DNA of 49,683 nucleotides from NCBI GenBank assembly GCA_020060385.1, contig JAGVAH010000040.1, forward strand, positions 1 to 49,683, in the 5' to 3' direction. Under the pieces are notes generated by a model. It saw nothing but the letters and a program-made list of their open reading frames with translations, ran no database searches and was not told where the DNA came from. Position 1 is the stretch's first letter, and every line of letters begins with the position of its first letter. The position numbers and the translations under genes were made by a program. The stretch is from Syntrophobacterales bacterium (GTDB taxonomy: Bacteria; Desulfobacterota; Desulfobaccia; Desulfobaccales; 0-14-0-80-60-11). Below, piece by piece: positions 4,834 to 21,257 of the stretch.

Positions 4834-5271
4834 TCAATAAAACTTCCGGAAGATCTCCTCAAAATAGACCAGGGACCAGAGAAAATAGACCGCCCCCAAG
4901 ATCGCGCCCAAAGGAAAGGTAAAAAACCAGAGAAGGGTGATTTGCGGTTTTTCGAAGCGCAGGCTGTTGGCGGTGGTCATCACATTGGCATAGACCATCC
5001 AAAAGCTGGCCAGACCGGTGAGATAATAACCCAGCCCCCACCCCCAAAAGATGAGAATGATGCCGGTCAAGGTCACCGGCACGGCCACCGCCAGGTCCGC
5101 CACCGCCAGGCCGTAGAAGACCTTCTGTTCATGCCAATCATCCGCCGTGCCGTCGGGGTTCTTCATAGCCCGGCCCTTAAGAACCAGCAACTGCCAGGGC
5201 CAGACGATGACCGCCATTAAGCCCATGAGCAGGAGATCGGTATAGAGGATGATCTTGCTGAGCAGAGGCAT
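4834..5271 (-). CDS. small polytopic inner-membrane protein, unknown
   Basis: A 145-residue, strongly hydrophobic protein with about four membrane segments: residues ~8-32 (ILYTDLLLMGLMAVIVWPWQLLVL), ~52-78, ~80-98 and ~112-135. A short soluble loop (KGRAMKNPDGTADDWHEQK) follows the first segment. The gene starts 6 bp after the msbA stop with an AAGAAG ribosome-binding sequence, so it is almost certainly co-transcribed with msbA. No catalytic motif or known family is visible. Placement inside the lipid A export/assembly block suggests an envelope function, but this is inference from position. Confidence 0.75.
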   Translation of the reverse strand: MPLLSKIILYTDLLLMGLMAVIVWPWQLLVLKGRAMKNPDGTADDWHEQKVFYGLAVADLAVAVPVTLTGIILIFWGWGLGYYLTGLASFWMVYANVMTTANSLRFEKPQITLLWFFTFPLGAILGAVYFLWSLVYFEEIFRKFY

Positions 5272-9045: not shown

Positions 9046-9048
9046 TCA
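8961..9048. repeat. CCCCCTTTTCTAAAGGGGG-type palindromic repeat, intergenic copy
   Basis: It begins CCCCCTTTTCTAAAGGGGG followed by ATTTAGGGGGATTT, then a degenerate opposite arm ending ATAAGGGGGG. It matches the repeat found inside the lpxK-waaF coding region at 3312-3392 and ends at the stop of the methyltransferase gene. Confidence 0.85.
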
Positions 9049-10683
9049 TAACAGCGACTCCTGCTTATCCCCCGGGGACCCCCGGCGGCGGGCCGCCTTT
9101 TTGAAGGTGCCCGAGGGCGCGAAGCGGGGGTACTCCAGTTCTTTGCCTCCCAGCAACTCGGCGATGGTCAATATCTGCAACCGGGGGAAGCGGTGGCCGG
9201 GGAAATGGGCCGGCTCGTAGAAGCCCGCGGCCGCGGCCTCCTCCTGCATGGGCCGGGTGGGGGGCTTGAGGCTCAGAAGCGCGCCGATGGGGGCCTTTTC
9301 CCGCTCCAGCACCCCCTTCAGGTCCCGCACCTGGGCCGCCGTGACGTGGCCGCTCTTCACCTGGATGACCACTTTTTTGTATTTGCCGGAGTTGTCGTCG
9401 TCGAAGTGGATGACGCCGTCCACCCCGGAATCCGGGCCCTTTTTCTTGTCCTGCGCTGGGCGCGCGTCCACCAGACCCAAGGCCCACCACTCGAACTGGT
9501 GGCGGTTGACTGCCGCCAGGGCCTGGGCGCTGGTCAGGTCCGCGGGCTCGCCGATGACCTCATAGGCCGCGAGCTCCGGACCGAAGGTGTCATGGAGGCG
9601 GTTTTTAATCAGAGTGATGGCCAGGTGGGTGATGTCGATGCCCAGCCAGCGGCGTTGCAGCCGCTCCGCGGCGATGAGCGCGGTGCCGCAGCCGCAGAAG
9701 GGGTCCAACACCAGGTCTCCTTCGTTGCTGGAGGCCCGGATGATGCGCTCCAGCAGGGCTTCGGGCTTCTGGGTGGGGTAGCCCAGGCGTTCTTTCGCTT
9801 GGGAGTTAATTGGAGGTATATCATTCCATGAATCTTGACTTGGGACCCCTTTAACTTCATCCAAATATCGCTTATATGCCGGCCAGCCACCACTAGGTGG
9901 CCAATAAATCCTTCCTTCGGAATCCAATCTTTCCAATGTTTCTATTGAAAATTTCCAATGGTTCCCTTTAGCAGATACATCAAATCCACGCCATGATTGA
10001 CCTGATGACCCTTTCCGTATTCCCATTGCTGTGAGGTTATCCGACCTCCAACGCCGTCCATCTGAATCAATTTGAGAATAATGCGATTTAAGATATTTTT
10101 GATCATATTCAGTGTATGAAGGATTCCAAATATACTCAGAAGACTTTGTATAGAAGAGGATTACATCGTGAACCGGACCATAACGCTTGGCGCTACTATG
10201 GGCGCTGGTTCTCTTCCAAATAATTTCATTCCGGAAATTGACAGGACCGAAAATTGAATCAAGGAGCATCCTTAGATAATGACTCGCAGTGGGATCACAA
10301 TGCAGATAAATACTCCCTGTGGGCTTCAGGACCCGGTGGAGTTCCACCAGGCGCACGGCCATCATGGTCAGATAGGCCATCATGTCGTTGGTCCCTAAAA
10401 AGCTGCGCAGCGCCTGGAGGAGGTCGGAGAGCTTCCGTGGTCCCAGGGTCACCACTTCATGGTACGCGGCCTCGGATTCCAAGCCCCAGTGCCAGGTGTC
10501 TTCGAACGCGGTGATCTGGGCCGCGGACTTCTCCCCGCTCTTTTCCGCGAACAGCACGTTGTAGGTGGCCTTGGAGTTGAAAGGGGGGTCCAGGTAGATG
10601 AGGTCCACGCTGGCAACCGGGATGTGCTCCCGGAGGATCTCCAGGTTGTCCCCGAAAAAGAGCTGGTTCTTCCAGGCCGTCAT
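9046..10683 (-). CDS. DNA methyltransferase (beta-class, DPPF) with C-terminal Mrr-like PD-(D/E)xK nuclease domain
   Basis: A 545-residue protein. The amino-methyltransferase catalytic motif DLIYLDPPF is near residue 30, and the AdoMet motif DPFCGCGTALIAAERL is near residue 325; this order (motif IV before I) defines beta-class N4-cytosine/N6-adenine DNA methylases. The stretch between them is the target-recognition region. The last ~130 residues hold GVDGVIHFDDD (about 421) and VVIQVKSGHV (about 440), a D...QxK pattern typical of Mrr-like restriction nuclease folds. I chose the ATG at 10683 because AGGAG stands 7 bases upstream; a start at 10713 lacks this. It has no neighbouring restriction or specificity gene, so modification and cleavage may be combined in one chain, or the nuclease domain may be regulatory. 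DNA for the middle section is far more AT-rich than the ends. Confidence 0.87.
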   Translation of the reverse strand: MTAWKNQLFFGDNLEILREHIPVASVDLIYLDPPFNSKATYNVLFAEKSGEKSAAQITAFEDTWHWGLESEAAYHEVVTLGPRKLSDLLQALRSFLGTNDMMAYLTMMAVRLVELHRVLKPTGSIYLHCDPTASHYLRMLLDSIFGPVNFRNEIIWKRTSAHSSAKRYGPVHDVILFYTKSSEYIWNPSYTEYDQKYLKSHYSQIDSDGRRWRSDNLTAMGIRKGSSGQSWRGFDVSAKGNHWKFSIETLERLDSEGRIYWPPSGGWPAYKRYLDEVKGVPSQDSWNDIPPINSQAKERLGYPTQKPEALLERIIRASSNEGDLVLDPFCGCGTALIAAERLQRRWLGIDITHLAITLIKNRLHDTFGPELAAYEVIGEPADLTSAQALAAVNRHQFEWWALGLVDARPAQDKKKGPDSGVDGVIHFDDDNSGKYKKVVIQVKSGHVTAAQVRDLKGVLEREKAPIGALLSLKPPTRPMQEEAAAAGFYEPAHFPGHRFPRLQILTIAELLGGKELEYPRFAPSGTFKKAARRRGSPGDKQESLL

Positions 10684-10809
10684 GGGTCTGCTCCTGTGGT
10701 CCGCAAGTGCCATTATAATAAAAAGAAATTAATCGGATAATCAAGAGGTTATTTAGATATTTGTCCGGTTTCCAAGGGAGGCTTGTTGAATCTTTCCCTT
10801 TTATCCAAG

Positions 10810-15465: not shown

Positions 15466-15804
15466 GGGGTCAGGGGGGCAGGGGTCAGGGGGCAGTGATC
15501 AGTGGCCAGAGGTCGTAGGTCGTAGGGGCGGGCATCTCGCCCGCCAGCCGCAAAATATTGGTAGCGCAGGCTTCATTAGCTTGGGAGCGGAGAAAAAGCG
15601 GTAGCACAGGCTTTCCAGCCTGTGCGGAATATCGAGGCGGGCGAGACGCCCGCCTACGGACAGGAGCCTTCTTTTTTGTGATTCATTAGTAATGTAGGGT
15701 GCGTCTCACGCACCACTTTTGGCGCGTAAGACGCTCCCTACGAAGAAAATAAGAAATGGCGGGCAGTGCCCGCCCTGCATTCTGACCACTGGCCACTGAC
15801 CACC
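15466..15804. other. intergenic region with several hairpin repeats
   Basis: No gene is visible. It contains GGCGGGC/GCCCGCC hairpins near 15530 and 15640, a GCACAGGCT-TTCC-AGCCTGTGC stem at 15604-15625 and a GGTGCGTCTCACGCACC stem at 15698-15714. The words CACTGGCCACTGACCAC just before 15805 are another short-repeat motif also seen near 12750. Confidence 0.7.
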
Positions 15805-18702
15805 ATGCTCCAAGACTTCATCCATTCCCTGAGAAACTCCGCGGAACACCGGGATATTCTCACCCATTACCATTATCTGCCCGATAAGGCTGCGGACTAT
15901 GGCAACTCCAGCCTGGCACCTTCGATAGTCGCGGCCCTGAAGCGCCTGGGCATCCCCCGGCTCTATAACCATCAGGCCCAGGCCCTGGCCGCCATCCGCG
16001 CGGAGAAAAACATCCTGGTGTCCACCCCCACGGCCAGCGGCAAGACCCTGATCTACAACCTGCCGGTCCTGGAGGCGTTGCTCAAAGACTCCCAGGGCCA
16101 CGCGCTTTACCTCTTTCCCCTGAAAGCCCTGGAGCAGGACCAGCTCAAAGCCCTCAAGGAACTGGACGCGGCCCTCCCCTCCCCTTTTTTAAGGGCCGGG
16201 ATTTATGACGGTGACACCCCCCCCGGGGACCGCCAGGCCCTGAAGGCCAAACCACCCCATGTCTTGATCAGCAACCCGGACATGCTGCACCTGGGGATTC
16301 TCCCCCACCACGGCGCGTGGTCGGATTTTTTTAAACGCCTGCGGTTCGTGGTGGTGGACGAAGTGCACACCTACCGGGGCATCACGGGCAGCCACATGGC
16401 CCAGGTGCTCCGGCGCCTGCGGCGCCTCTGCGCCCACTATGGAGCATCCCCCCAGTTCCTCTTCTCTTCGGCCACCATCGCCAAACCCGAGGATTTTATC
16501 CGCAAGTTGACGGGCCTGGAGGTGGAGATCATTGCCGAGAGCGGCGCGCCCCAATCCGGCCGCCATTTTTTGTTCCTGAACCCCCCCGCGGGCGCGCCCA
16601 CGGTGGCCGCGCAGATCTTTGCCCAGGCCATCCGCCAGGGCCTGGCCACCATCTGCTTCACCCAGGCCCGGAAACTCACGGAGCTGATCCACCTCTGGTC
16701 CCAGCGCCTGGTGCCGGAGCTGCGGCGCTACATCAGCTCGTACCGGGCCGGGTTCCTGCCGGAGGAGCGCCGGGAGATCGAAAGCAGCCTGGCCTCGGGC
16801 AAAATGCGGGGTGTGATTTCCACCAGCGCCCTGGAAATGGGTATCGACATCGGCGGCCTAGACGTCTGCATCCTGGTGGGCTACCCCGGCACCATGGTCA
16901 CCACCTGGCAGCGGGCCGGCCGGGTGGGCCGCCAGGGCCGGGACTCCCTCATCGTCCTGGTGGCCCAGGCCGACGCCCTGGACCAGTATTTCATCAAGTA
17001 TCCGGACCAGTTCTTCGGCCGGCCCCTGGAGACCGCGGTGGTGGACCCGGACAACCCTTACGTGGTCAAGGAGCATCTCCCCTGCGCGGCCCAGGAGCTG
17101 CCCCTCAAGGAGGATGACCCCTTCTTTGACCTGAAGGTCCATGACCCGGTGCTCCAGGAACTTACCCAGGAGCGCCACCTCCTGCAAAGCGCCGCGGGGG
17201 ACGCCTGGTTCGCCCGGGCCCGCTTCCCCCAGAAGGAAGTGAATATCCGGGGCATGGGGGAGAGTTTCTCCATCTTTCTGGAGGGCAAGAAAAAGCCCCT
17301 GGGTTCCGTTGACGGCCACCGGGCCTTGCGGGAGTGCCATCCGGGCGCGGTCTACCTCCACAAGGCCAGAACTTACGCGGTGCAGCGCCTGGACCTGGAG
17401 CGGCGCAACATCTGGGTGGAGCCCATTGAGCCCAATTATTTCACCCGCATCCAGACGGACAAGGACACGGAGATCCTGGAGGTGCGGGAAAAGCGGCGGA
17501 TGGCCCAATTCATCGCCTGCACCGGGCGGCTGAAGGTCACGGAGAGATTGCTCAGCTACGAAAAGAGGCGGCTGCCGGGCCAGGAACTCATGGGCCTGGT
17601 GCCCCTGGAACTGCCCCCTTCCATCTTTGAGACCGTGGGCATGTGGCTGGAGATCCCCGACGACGTCAAGGCCGCGGTCTACGGGCAAGGCCGCCACTTC
17701 ATGGGGGGCATCCACGCCCTGGAGCACGTGCTCATCAGCATGTTCCCGCTCTTTGCCCTGGCGGACCGCTACGACATCGGCGGCATTTCCCATCCCGCCC
17801 ACCCCCAGGTGGGACAGGCGGCCATCTTCATCTACGACGGTTATCCCGGGGGGGTGGGCCTGGCGGAACGGGCTTACGAAATCCTGGAGGATTTGCTGAA
17901 GCGCACCCGGGAGCTCATCGACGCCTGCCCCTGCGAAGACGGCTGCCCCTCCTGCGTCCATTCCCCCAAGTGCGGCTCCGGGAATAAACCCCTGGATAAG
18001 GAGGCCGCGATCCTGACCGCGGATCTTCTGTTGGGGCTGGCGACACCCGAGGCCCCGGCGGCGACACCGCCGGACCTGCCCCCCCTACCCTCCCCCGAGC
18101 CCGTGGTCATCGGAGAAACCTGGCTCAATGCCCGGAAAGTGGGTTTTTTGGACCTGGAGACCTGTTGCTCCGCGGCCGACGTGGGGGGCTGGGGCCAGTG
18201 CCACCGCATGGGCGTGTCGGTGGCGGTCCTGGGGGAGACCCAGCCGGCCCAGGTGCAGGTTTACCGGGAAGCGGACCTGGAGCGCCTGGCCCAGCGCCTG
18301 AAGGAGCTGGACCTGGTGGTGGGCTTCAATATCAAACGCTTTGATTACCGGGTGCTCCAGCCCTATACCGCGGTTGACCTGGCCGCACTGCCCACCCTGG
18401 ACATCCTGGAGGAAATCCAGAAAAGCCTGGGGCACCGCCTCTCTTTGGGCCACCTGGCGGAAAAGACCCTGGGCGAACAAAAAACCGGGGACGGCCTCCT
18501 GGCCCTGGAGCTTTACGCCGCGGGCAAATGGGAGGAACTGGAATCCTACTGCCGCCAGGACGTGCTCCTCACCCAGCGGCTCTTCGCCTTCGGGGTGGAA
18601 AAGGGCTATCTCCTCTACCAGCACCGCCAGGGCGCGCTGGTGCGCATCCCGGTGGATTGGCAGGAGGAACGCCTTTTGGGAAATAGAGATGGAAGCAGGT
18701 AG
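15805..18702 (+). CDS. mrfA: MrfA-type DEAD/DEAH helicase (DUF1998) fused to MrfB-like DEDD exonuclease domain
   Basis: A 965-residue protein. Residues ~50-400 form a superfamily 2 helicase: Walker A STPTASGKT (about 72), DEVH box VVVDEVHTYRG (about 185), SSAT motif III (about 222), and the helicase C motifs STSALEMGIDIGGLD and QRAGRVGR. Residues ~600-735 are a DUF1998-type domain with four cysteines, CPCEDGCPSCVHSPKCGSG (about 707-724). This is the MrfA/YprA/Hrq1 class. The last ~190 residues are an RNase H-fold exonuclease of DEDD type: FLDLETC (about 781), NIKRFD (about 845) and YCRQDV (about 915), as in MrfB/YprB. In Bacillus MrfA and MrfB are separate and act in mitomycin C crosslink repair. 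The frame stays open 13 codons upstream; the ATG at 15805 gives the family-like start. Confidence 0.88.
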   Translation: MLQDFIHSLRNSAEHRDILTHYHYLPDKAADYGNSSLAPSIVAALKRLGIPRLYNHQAQALAAIRAEKNILVSTPTASGKTLIYNLPVLEALLKDSQGHALYLFPLKALEQDQLKALKELDAALPSPFLRAGIYDGDTPPGDRQALKAKPPHVLISNPDMLHLGILPHHGAWSDFFKRLRFVVVDEVHTYRGITGSHMAQVLRRLRRLCAHYGASPQFLFSSATIAKPEDFIRKLTGLEVEIIAESGAPQSGRHFLFLNPPAGAPTVAAQIFAQAIRQGLATICFTQARKLTELIHLWSQRLVPELRRYISSYRAGFLPEERREIESSLASGKMRGVISTSALEMGIDIGGLDVCILVGYPGTMVTTWQRAGRVGRQGRDSLIVLVAQADALDQYFIKYPDQFFGRPLETAVVDPDNPYVVKEHLPCAAQELPLKEDDPFFDLKVHDPVLQELTQERHLLQSAAGDAWFARARFPQKEVNIRGMGESFSIFLEGKKKPLGSVDGHRALRECHPGAVYLHKARTYAVQRLDLERRNIWVEPIEPNYFTRIQTDKDTEILEVREKRRMAQFIACTGRLKVTERLLSYEKRRLPGQELMGLVPLELPPSIFETVGMWLEIPDDVKAAVYGQGRHFMGGIHALEHVLISMFPLFALADRYDIGGISHPAHPQVGQAAIFIYDGYPGGVGLAERAYEILEDLLKRTRELIDACPCEDGCPSCVHSPKCGSGNKPLDKEAAILTADLLLGLATPEAPAATPPDLPPLPSPEPVVIGETWLNARKVGFLDLETCCSAADVGGWGQCHRMGVSVAVLGETQPAQVQVYREADLERLAQRLKELDLVVGFNIKRFDYRVLQPYTAVDLAALPTLDILEEIQKSLGHRLSLGHLAEKTLGEQKTGDGLLALELYAAGKWEELESYCRQDVLLTQRLFAFGVEKGYLLYQHRQGALVRIPVDWQEERLLGNRDGSR

Positions 18703-19005: not shown

Positions 19006-20814
19006 CTAACTCTGTGCTCGATTAGATAAATGGAGTCGGCTGGGGGCCGGTCCGGCGTTTTCCTGGGTTACATCGGCGATGACCACCTGGTTGCGTCCCC
19101 CGGCCTTGGCAAGATAGAGCGCGGCATCCGCGGCCCGAATGACATCCTCCATATCTTCCCCATGCTCAGGGCAATTGGCCACTCCAAAAGAAGCAGTGAT
19201 CTTTCCTAGAGAAAGCCCCAAATGCTTGACATCAAACCGGGCGATGATCTCCCGCAATTCTTCTGCCCGCCGATAAGTATTTTCCAGGTTGGCGTCAGGC
19301 AAAATCAGCAAAAACTCCTCCCCCCCGTAGCGGCAAGGGACGTCCTCCCGGCGAATCTGCTTTTTGAAAAATCCTCCCAGAGCCGCCAGCAGGGTATCCC
19401 CCGCCTCATGGCCGTAGGTGTCATTAATGCGCTTAAAATAATCGATATCCATCAGGATAATGCCGATGGGAGCTTCCCGGCGCCTGGCCCGGTAGATTTC
19501 CCGGTTCAGGGTCTCTTCCATATAGCGCCGGTTATACAAGCCCGTCAGGGGATCGATAATGGCCTGGATATGCAGACTTTCCCGGAGGCTCAAGTTAGCC
19601 AGGGCCATGGAGATTTGCTTGGCCACGGTTACCGCTAATTGCTGTTTATGGATTAACAAGGTATGAGCCTCATCTGCCACGGTCTCCGCGCCATTGTCCG
19701 CCGCAGCTTGCATGTAGATCAAGCCCAGAATCTCACCCTGGGCAATTAAGGGAACACATATATAATCAGCAGAGGAGGCGGGTAGATGTTTGCAAATCAA
19801 ACCGGAAGAATAATTCTTGCCGATGTGCACCCCGCCACGGCGTAAGGCCCAACAATCATCCAGGGTGAAGATTTTTTCCTCGATATGGACCTCTCCCCAG
19901 CCGGCCACCGCCTGTAAAAACACGCTTTTCCGAGGAGTGACGATAAAGAGGATGCCTGCCAGGTCAGGAAACAAACGGGGAACCACCTCCGTAATGCTTT
20001 GGTAGGCCTCCTGCAGGGTGAGGCAAGACTGGAGCAATTCCCCCATTTCGTTCAGGAGAGAGATTTGTTGGCTATGGTTATTTATTTCCGTAACCGTATC
20101 CTCGAGTTGGGCCATAGTTTCATGCAATTGGGCTTCCATCTGCCGTTTTTCGGTAACATCAAAAAACACTCCACTGACATGTTTGATCTTATTTTCTAGA
20201 TCGCAGATAATCCGGCTGCGCTCTTGCAGCCAAATAGATTGTCCATTTCTATGGACGATCCGGTATTCCCTGGTATAAGCCATATCATTTTCCAGGGCGT
20301 CCACGAAGGTCCTCTTGGCCTTTTGCCAGTCTTCGGCCACCACAATATCCGACCAATTCTTTCGATTCGTCTCGAATATTTCTCGAGGATAACCGGTAAT
20401 ATCTAAGACTTTGTTATCATAGAACTTGACGCTGCCGTTCTTATATCCTGTAAAGACTATGGCGGGAATATTGTTGACCAATAATTGAAATTCTTCCTTG
20501 CTTTGGGCCAAGCGCCTTTTATCCCCATCAACGGCCAGAAATAGGGGTCTAATCAGGGCCACCCCCAGGAGCATTAAAGCGGAAATTCCCAGGGTTGTGA
20601 CCGCGGAGGCCAGGTCGGTGGCAGAGATGGAAGCATCAGAAAGCCCACTATAAAAGGTCAGACAGCGTCTGATGGCCATGAACAAGTTGGCCATGGCGAT
20701 GAAGCTCCAGGCGACGATGCGGCCGGTAAGGGGGATGAGCCGGAAGGCCAAGAAGGCGGCAGCAAACTGCAATAACACCGATACCACGTTAATGATTTTG
20801 AAGGCTACTTCCAT
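19006..20814 (-). CDS. membrane-bound PAS-GAF-GGDEF diguanylate cyclase
   Basis: A 602-residue signalling protein that should make c-di-GMP from GTP. Three hydrophobic segments fill residues ~5-100, followed by a PAS domain (~110-235; FQLLVNNIPAIVFTGYK to FFDVTEKRQMEAQL), a coiled-coil linker, a GAF domain (~265-420) and a GGDEF domain (~435-595). The active-site motif is GGEEF, preceded at the canonical distance by RRED, the RxxD product-inhibition I-site, so feedback control by c-di-GMP is likely. No EAL domain is present. The ATG at 20814 begins just before the first membrane helix; an in-frame TTG at 20853 would add 13 residues. It is a single gene with no obvious partner, and the ligand of PAS/GAF is unknown. 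Confidence 0.9.
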   Translation of the reverse strand: MEVAFKIINVVSVLLQFAAAFLAFRLIPLTGRIVAWSFIAMANLFMAIRRCLTFYSGLSDASISATDLASAVTTLGISALMLLGVALIRPLFLAVDGDKRRLAQSKEEFQLLVNNIPAIVFTGYKNGSVKFYDNKVLDITGYPREIFETNRKNWSDIVVAEDWQKAKRTFVDALENDMAYTREYRIVHRNGQSIWLQERSRIICDLENKIKHVSGVFFDVTEKRQMEAQLHETMAQLEDTVTEINNHSQQISLLNEMGELLQSCLTLQEAYQSITEVVPRLFPDLAGILFIVTPRKSVFLQAVAGWGEVHIEEKIFTLDDCWALRRGGVHIGKNYSSGLICKHLPASSADYICVPLIAQGEILGLIYMQAAADNGAETVADEAHTLLIHKQQLAVTVAKQISMALANLSLRESLHIQAIIDPLTGLYNRRYMEETLNREIYRARRREAPIGIILMDIDYFKRINDTYGHEAGDTLLAALGGFFKKQIRREDVPCRYGGEEFLLILPDANLENTYRRAEELREIIARFDVKHLGLSLGKITASFGVANCPEHGEDMEDVIRAADAALYLAKAGGRNQVVIADVTQENAGPAPSRLHLSNRAQS

Positions 20815-21257
20815 GATCTTGTTTTCTTTTATACGTAAGATATTTTGCAGCAATGCAACAACTATACCCTGGTCTGGTAATAGGGTTATCTTTCTAAAAA
20901 GTATCGAAAAACTCTAAGCAAGTAAGGTCAGTTTTGGTTAGGCAATATAACGCCGGGCGTCAGCTTTTTTTCCAGGTTGTAAAGATCAAACAATTCAAAT
21001 GGTTGCCCTTTCCAGGTTACCCCTCACAAGTTCATTGCTTCTTGTTAAAGTTTTTCTCCTAATCTTCTTTTTTATTTATTACCTTATACGTCGATTCAGC
21101 CAGCAGGCGCATGAGGATTTTGTAACCTTTTAACCCCAGCGTTCCCGCCTCCTTTCCGAACTCCATACCTCCCCCTTCTCTCCCAAAACCTATTCTTTTC
21201 TTGCCCTTTGGCCCCGCATAATTTATCATTTGCCAAAAACCTGGAAAGGGGTGTGCA
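20815..21257. other. intergenic, AT-rich, no gene seen
   Basis: This divergent gap between the cyclase (minus) and the thioredoxin gene (plus) probably contains both promoters. I see no convincing -35/-10 pair, no strong hairpin and no coding signal. Confidence 0.5.

Follow-up and report, generated by a model that had tools for sequence, protein, structure and literature searches.

Among the known systems closest to the gene studied here is the MrfAB pair of Bacillus subtilis, in which MrfA (YprA) is a 3'-5' helicase and MrfB (YprB) a 3'-5' exonuclease (PMC12458937). MrfB is a DEDDh enzyme with H258 four residues before D262, TPR repeats after the core and a long N-terminal part. A two-hybrid contact between MrfA and MrfB has already been reported, and the repair ascribed to the pair is that of mitomycin monoadducts and/or intrastrand crosslinks (PMC11194089), so that the 'crosslink repair' label in an initial annotation of our DNA was a loose one. 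YprA helicases 'fused to' MrfB/YprB homologs were already mentioned in a 2025 preprint (PMC12458937), and the fusion as such is therefore not new.

We analysed a stretch of 49,683 nucleotides from a Syntrophobacterales bacterium (the window), in which a helicase and an exonuclease are encoded by one gene with the following features:

15805..18702, + strand: fusion gene, a single uninterrupted frame of 965 aa (translation)
15967..16491, + strand: DEAD/RecA1 domain (Pfam PF00270, residues 55-229, 8e-30)
16024-16047, + strand: Walker A motif TPTASGKT in DEAD/RecA1
16357-16368, + strand: DEVH motif in DEAD/RecA1
16468-16476, + strand: SAT motif in DEAD/RecA1
16633..16938, + strand: RecA2 / Helicase_C domain (Pfam PF00271, residues 277-378, 4e-13)
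16909-16932, + strand: motif VI QRAGRVGR in RecA2 / Helicase_C
17041..17256, + strand: winged-helix domain of the HRQ1 type (WHD_HRQ1; Pfam PF22982, residues 413-484, 9e-13)
17719..17973, + strand: MZB/DUF1998 zinc domain (Pfam PF09369, residues 639-718, 4e-25)
17926-17973, + strand: cysteine cluster CPCEDGCPSCVHSPKC in MZB/DUF1998, five Cys, compared across clades
18001..18138, + strand: Pro/Ala-rich linker from zinc domain to exonuclease, of variable length across fused proteins
18139..18621, + strand: predicted DEDDy 3'-5' exonuclease domain (AlphaFold2, PDB matches, conservation, phrog_403 at 1e-14)
D783 18151, E785 18157, D847 18343, Y915 18547, D919 18559, + strand: catalytic codons, assigned by conservation

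Frame, Pfam matches and motifs confirm at the sequence level that one predicted polypeptide joins a YprA-family helicase to a DEDD exonuclease with intact active-site residues, as the initial annotation had claimed. The motifs it had listed as LDLET, IKRFD and YCRQD are present in the tail (DLET 783-786, NIKRFD 842-847, YCRQD 915-919), which RNase_H_2 (PF13482) matches weakly (residues 823-927, 4e-6, 27 bits, Pfam). An assembly artefact or frameshift join was ruled out, since 27 of the 28 order members sampled carry the same single ORF, which a contig end cuts short in a few cases. The ATG at 15805 is kept in relatives (context ATGCTCCA[A/G]GA) while the sequence 5' of it diverges, and this start, chosen from the outset, is therefore preferable to the mechanical GTG at 15766. 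A clear Shine-Dalgarno sequence was not found in the region just before 15805. The gene is apparently its own transcription unit.

The helicase half belongs to the YprA family: PF00270, PF00271, PF22982 and PF09369 all score over their cut-offs and in this order, and the B. subtilis YprA/MrfA structure 6znp matches residues 35-720 (E=2e-156). The description 'MrfA-like' thus holds for the family, but not for the clade. In the helicase tree, B. subtilis YprA joins the mrfB-linked helicases of the phylum (support 100). The fused helicases stand apart in a clade of their own, whose nearest neighbours are YprA helicases free of a nuclease, and the window helicase is not part of the clade that holds B. 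subtilis MrfA together with all mrfB-linked helicases but one. The zinc cluster points the same way. Wherever the cluster can be read in fused helicases (63 of 63), it takes the form CxCxxGCPxCxxSPxCGxxNKPLxK, including a fifth Cys (SPKC in the window protein, where four had been counted at first), whereas the cluster of MrfA-type helicases ends in CPxCVGP and lacks the fifth Cys; judged on these sequences, this residue is diagnostic for fused as against MrfA-type helicases. The separation of the two branches is imperfect: one genome (G050) has, immediately upstream of a YprA helicase with the fused-type zinc cluster, a fragment of an MrfB-type DEDDh exonuclease (L070:2-2670), possibly an intermediate arrangement.

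The best tree recovered unites the fused helicases in a single clade (p-AU 0.63); the contig-truncated row L140, near-copies and a long archaeal branch had been taken out beforehand. When L140 was labelled unfused, a single clade was rejected (p 4e-6), most likely because of that label: L140 is a gene truncated at a contig end (contig C362 ends at base 4961) and nests among the fused rows. A single clade would be consistent with one fusion event.

The tail was modelled with AlphaFold2 from an alignment of 15 sequences that included stand-alone viral homologues, and the model has a DnaQ-like exonuclease fold (pLDDT 91, pTM 0.87); the reservation, made initially, that the tail might lack such a fold does not hold. 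Within the PDB, Foldseek places the model closest to the proofreading domains of archaeal family-B and T7 DNA polymerases; among viral proteins, its top hit is a stand-alone one of 214 aa (E=2e-14). D783, E785, D847, Y915 and D919 are essentially invariant among 65 tails (a few of which are the same gene fetched twice), and Tyr occupies the 915 position in all 64 readable ones. The tail thus carries the DxE, FD and YxxxD motifs of DEDDy enzymes of the DnaQ/polymerase type on a DnaQ fold. Among PHROGs it matches phrog_403, 'DNA polymerase exonuclease subunit', at 1e-14, whereas MrfB reaches only 1e-5. Profile comparison with phage exonucleases (hhalign) gave 99.5% and 4e-23, and in the exonuclease tree tails and viral rows group together (99/97), apart from MrfB (100/99). 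One stand-alone homologue on a viral contig (L160:4956-5546), 41% identical to the tail and sharing its VGGW motif, nests among the bacterial tails. Sequence and model together identify the tail as a predicted 3'-5' exonuclease domain of the DEDDy, phage/proofreading type.

Between the two halves, from NKPLDK to DLET, lies a linker of 45-73 residues that is unconserved and consists of 47% P/A/S/E/T (47 fused proteins). A long and variable linker keeps the halves close but sets no fixed geometry, and the expectation that the fusion would predict how helicase and nuclease are arranged is not borne out. MrfB itself has been modelled as docked on the winged-helix side. AlphaFold2 of the whole protein from a single sequence reached pLDDT 36. 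In one family (f41), two fused proteins (L082 and L083) are 1169-1210 aa long and have an N-terminal extension of ~100 residues; their linker spans about 130 residues.

The fusion occupies a syntenic chromosomal locus in nearly all of the order. A peptidase-like gene upstream and a thioredoxin-like and a Usp gene downstream are kept across the family, which argues for a vertically inherited chromosomal housekeeping locus and not a defence island. The thioredoxin-like gene is the next gene downstream of the fusion in relatives; in the window, a PAS-GGDEF diguanylate cyclase gene (19006-20853, - strand) stands between the two and looks like a lineage-specific insertion. The intergenic region 15466-15804 consists of short units, inverted and repeated (CTCGCCCGCC / GGCGGGCGAGACGCCCGCC, GTAGCRCAGGCTT), that resemble dispersed REP-type elements. 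Elsewhere in the window, a single ORF (9046-10710, - strand) combines an N6/N4 DNA methylase with an Mrr-type restriction endonuclease domain and is possibly a single-chain restriction-modification enzyme.

We lean, with somewhat better than even confidence, to the view that the protein is a YprA-branch (SftH/Hrq1-like) SF2 helicase flexibly tethered to a DEDDy 3'-5' exonuclease, and a stand-in for MrfA-MrfB that was built independently. What sequence and model show of this is the domain order, the intact active sites, the exonuclease subfamily, the helicase clade, the vertical conservation and the mutual exclusion with mrfB. The predicted motor would load on a 3' single-stranded tail and move 3' to 5' (a polarity taken from MrfA and SftH), and the tethered exonuclease, if active as we infer, would degrade that same strand from its trailing 3' end. 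Unwinding and removal of damaged or displaced DNA could then be combined in a single step, and this reading would imply a part in DNA-damage repair. As to origin, we give about even weight to a single capture, in which a nuclease-free YprA helicase acquired a phage-type DEDDy exonuclease and the single-chain machine so formed took over from the unrelated MrfAB in much of the phylum.

The distribution of the two systems was analysed in 247 genomes of the window's own phylum. The tail-type exonuclease was found in 70 of them, in 68 cases inside the helicase frame (the default cut-off gives 72 exonuclease genomes, two of which are marginal matches in frames of 820-828 aa), and MrfB in 32. None of the 247 genomes has both the exonuclease tail and MrfB (hypergeometric 1e-5), and none of the 27 families with the exonuclease is among the 12 with MrfB (hypergeometric 0.008); shared ancestry within families weakens these statistics. 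No MrfB was found in the window's own genome when it was searched. The same genome encodes, on another contig (C12, L038:1243-1992), a separate 250-aa RNase_H_2 protein with DIETT, FNGSQFD and YNREDV motifs, which matches PF13482 far better than the fused tail does (110 bits) and is neither MrfB nor the fused tail. A scan of genome contigs returned near relatives and one archaeal unfused helicase, and a search of plasmids only one partial match. Over half of the genomes sampled from the phylum lack both systems, which implies that the job of these systems is dispensable.

That two similar pairings occur in complementary sets of genomes suggests substitution, at least for the genomes compared, but mutual exclusion could also follow lineage history alone. 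The main alternative starts from this point: the fusion may act in a pathway other than that of MrfAB, for example in 3'-end trimming or flap removal during recombination or replication restart, with the exclusion of mrfB a product of lineage history. Stand-alone YprA helicases such as SftH and Hrq1 have other or broader roles, the fusion locus lies among non-repair genes, the family-level exclusion reaches only p 0.008 and many genomes do without either system. We nevertheless regard this alternative as unlikely, if worth serious attention, since the unusual pairing of a YprA helicase with a DEDD 3'-5' exonuclease appears to have arisen twice and the two forms never occur together in the genomes compared, which suggests a shared job.

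A second alternative is that two Bacillus-type proteins were joined in a true MrfA-MrfB fusion, the tail having diverged from MrfB. In its favour, the broad superfamilies of both domains are the same, PF13482 is matched above its cut-off by the tail as it is by MrfB, and fused nucleases were grouped as MrfB/YprB homologs in PMC12458937. Classical MrfB genes do occur in the same phylum, usually directly adjoining an unfused YprA gene; they have the His in 30 of 30 examined (DEDDh), and a profile built from them hits the MrfB crystal structure 8UN9 at 1e-48. The tails, by contrast, have Tyr in place of His throughout. With the tail profile, no MrfB structure (8UN9) was matched in the PDB at E<=1; the tail shows no convincing TPR match and no N-terminal extension, consisting of an exonuclease fold of ~165 residues alone. 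Direct comparison with MrfB (hhalign) gave 83.7% and 8e-6. Since, in addition, the tail falls among phage exonucleases rather than with MrfB and the helicase lies outside the MrfA clade, we consider a true MrfA-MrfB fusion decidedly improbable. The initial description of an MrfB-like domain was thus mistaken. With a tail that is not MrfB and a helicase off the MrfA clade, the fusion offers no Rosetta-stone evidence on MrfA and MrfB, and the claim that it supports a direct complex of the two falls as well.

Least probable by far is an anti-phage defence protein: although YprA helicases are the core of DISARM, Druantia and ARMADA systems, several with C-terminal nucleases (PMC12458937), we rejected a defence origin on the merely partial, motor-level PADLOC matches and the conserved housekeeping neighbours at a locus syntenic in nearly all of the order, and the nuclease, with its intact active site, is neither Vsr nor PLD nor the inactivated RNase H of TALON.

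For the stand-in reading that we prefer, the prior record is partial. The initial annotation had allowed that such a fusion might already be known, and the architecture is indeed recorded in PMC12458937; but in that preprint and the other literature searched we did not find it stated that a distinct, DEDDy phage-like nuclease sits on a distinct helicase clade and excludes MrfB. The MrfAB route, whose loss causes mitomycin sensitivity and whose alleles are reported to be species-specific, is little understood, and with a single-chain analogue the coupling of helicase and nuclease could be studied directly in a single purified protein. Such an analogue would also separate the requirements of the pathway (a YprA motor and a 3'-5' DEDD exonuclease) from features peculiar to Bacillus. 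If the capture reading is true, the same helicase-exonuclease repair unit was assembled convergently from different parts. The analogue also urges caution, in that a nuclease joined to a YprA helicase should not automatically be called MrfB.

Compared with known systems, the fusion shares with B. subtilis MrfA/YprA (6znp) the domain order up to the MZB zinc domain, but MrfA has a CPSCxG cluster in place of the five-Cys SPKC form, falls in a separate clade and has its nuclease encoded by mrfB, not fused in cis. With MrfB/YprB (8un9) it has in common the DEDD 3'-5' exonuclease superfamily, PF13482 and the partnership with a YprA helicase, whereas MrfB is DEDDh with TPR repeats and a long N-terminal part and the DEDDy tail has neither of these and no profile match. 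The phage DNA-polymerase exonuclease subunit (phrog_403) and the stand-alone viral exonucleases (L160-L174) provide the best sequence match of the tail and have the same DEDDy active site; they are, however, stand-alone or polymerase-linked, not helicase-fused. The SftH / Hrq1 'YprA-only' helicases (TIGR03817) share the HRQ1-type winged helix and the domain set but have no nuclease tail, and the fusion, at 739.9 bits, stays under the TIGR03817 (SftH-like) cut-off of 874.1. Finally, TALON YprA helicases (PMC12458937) also carry a C-terminal RNase H-fold domain, but theirs is reported to be inactivated and lies in a TOTE-like defence operon, whereas the active-site residues of the fusion are intact and invariant and its neighbours are housekeeping genes.
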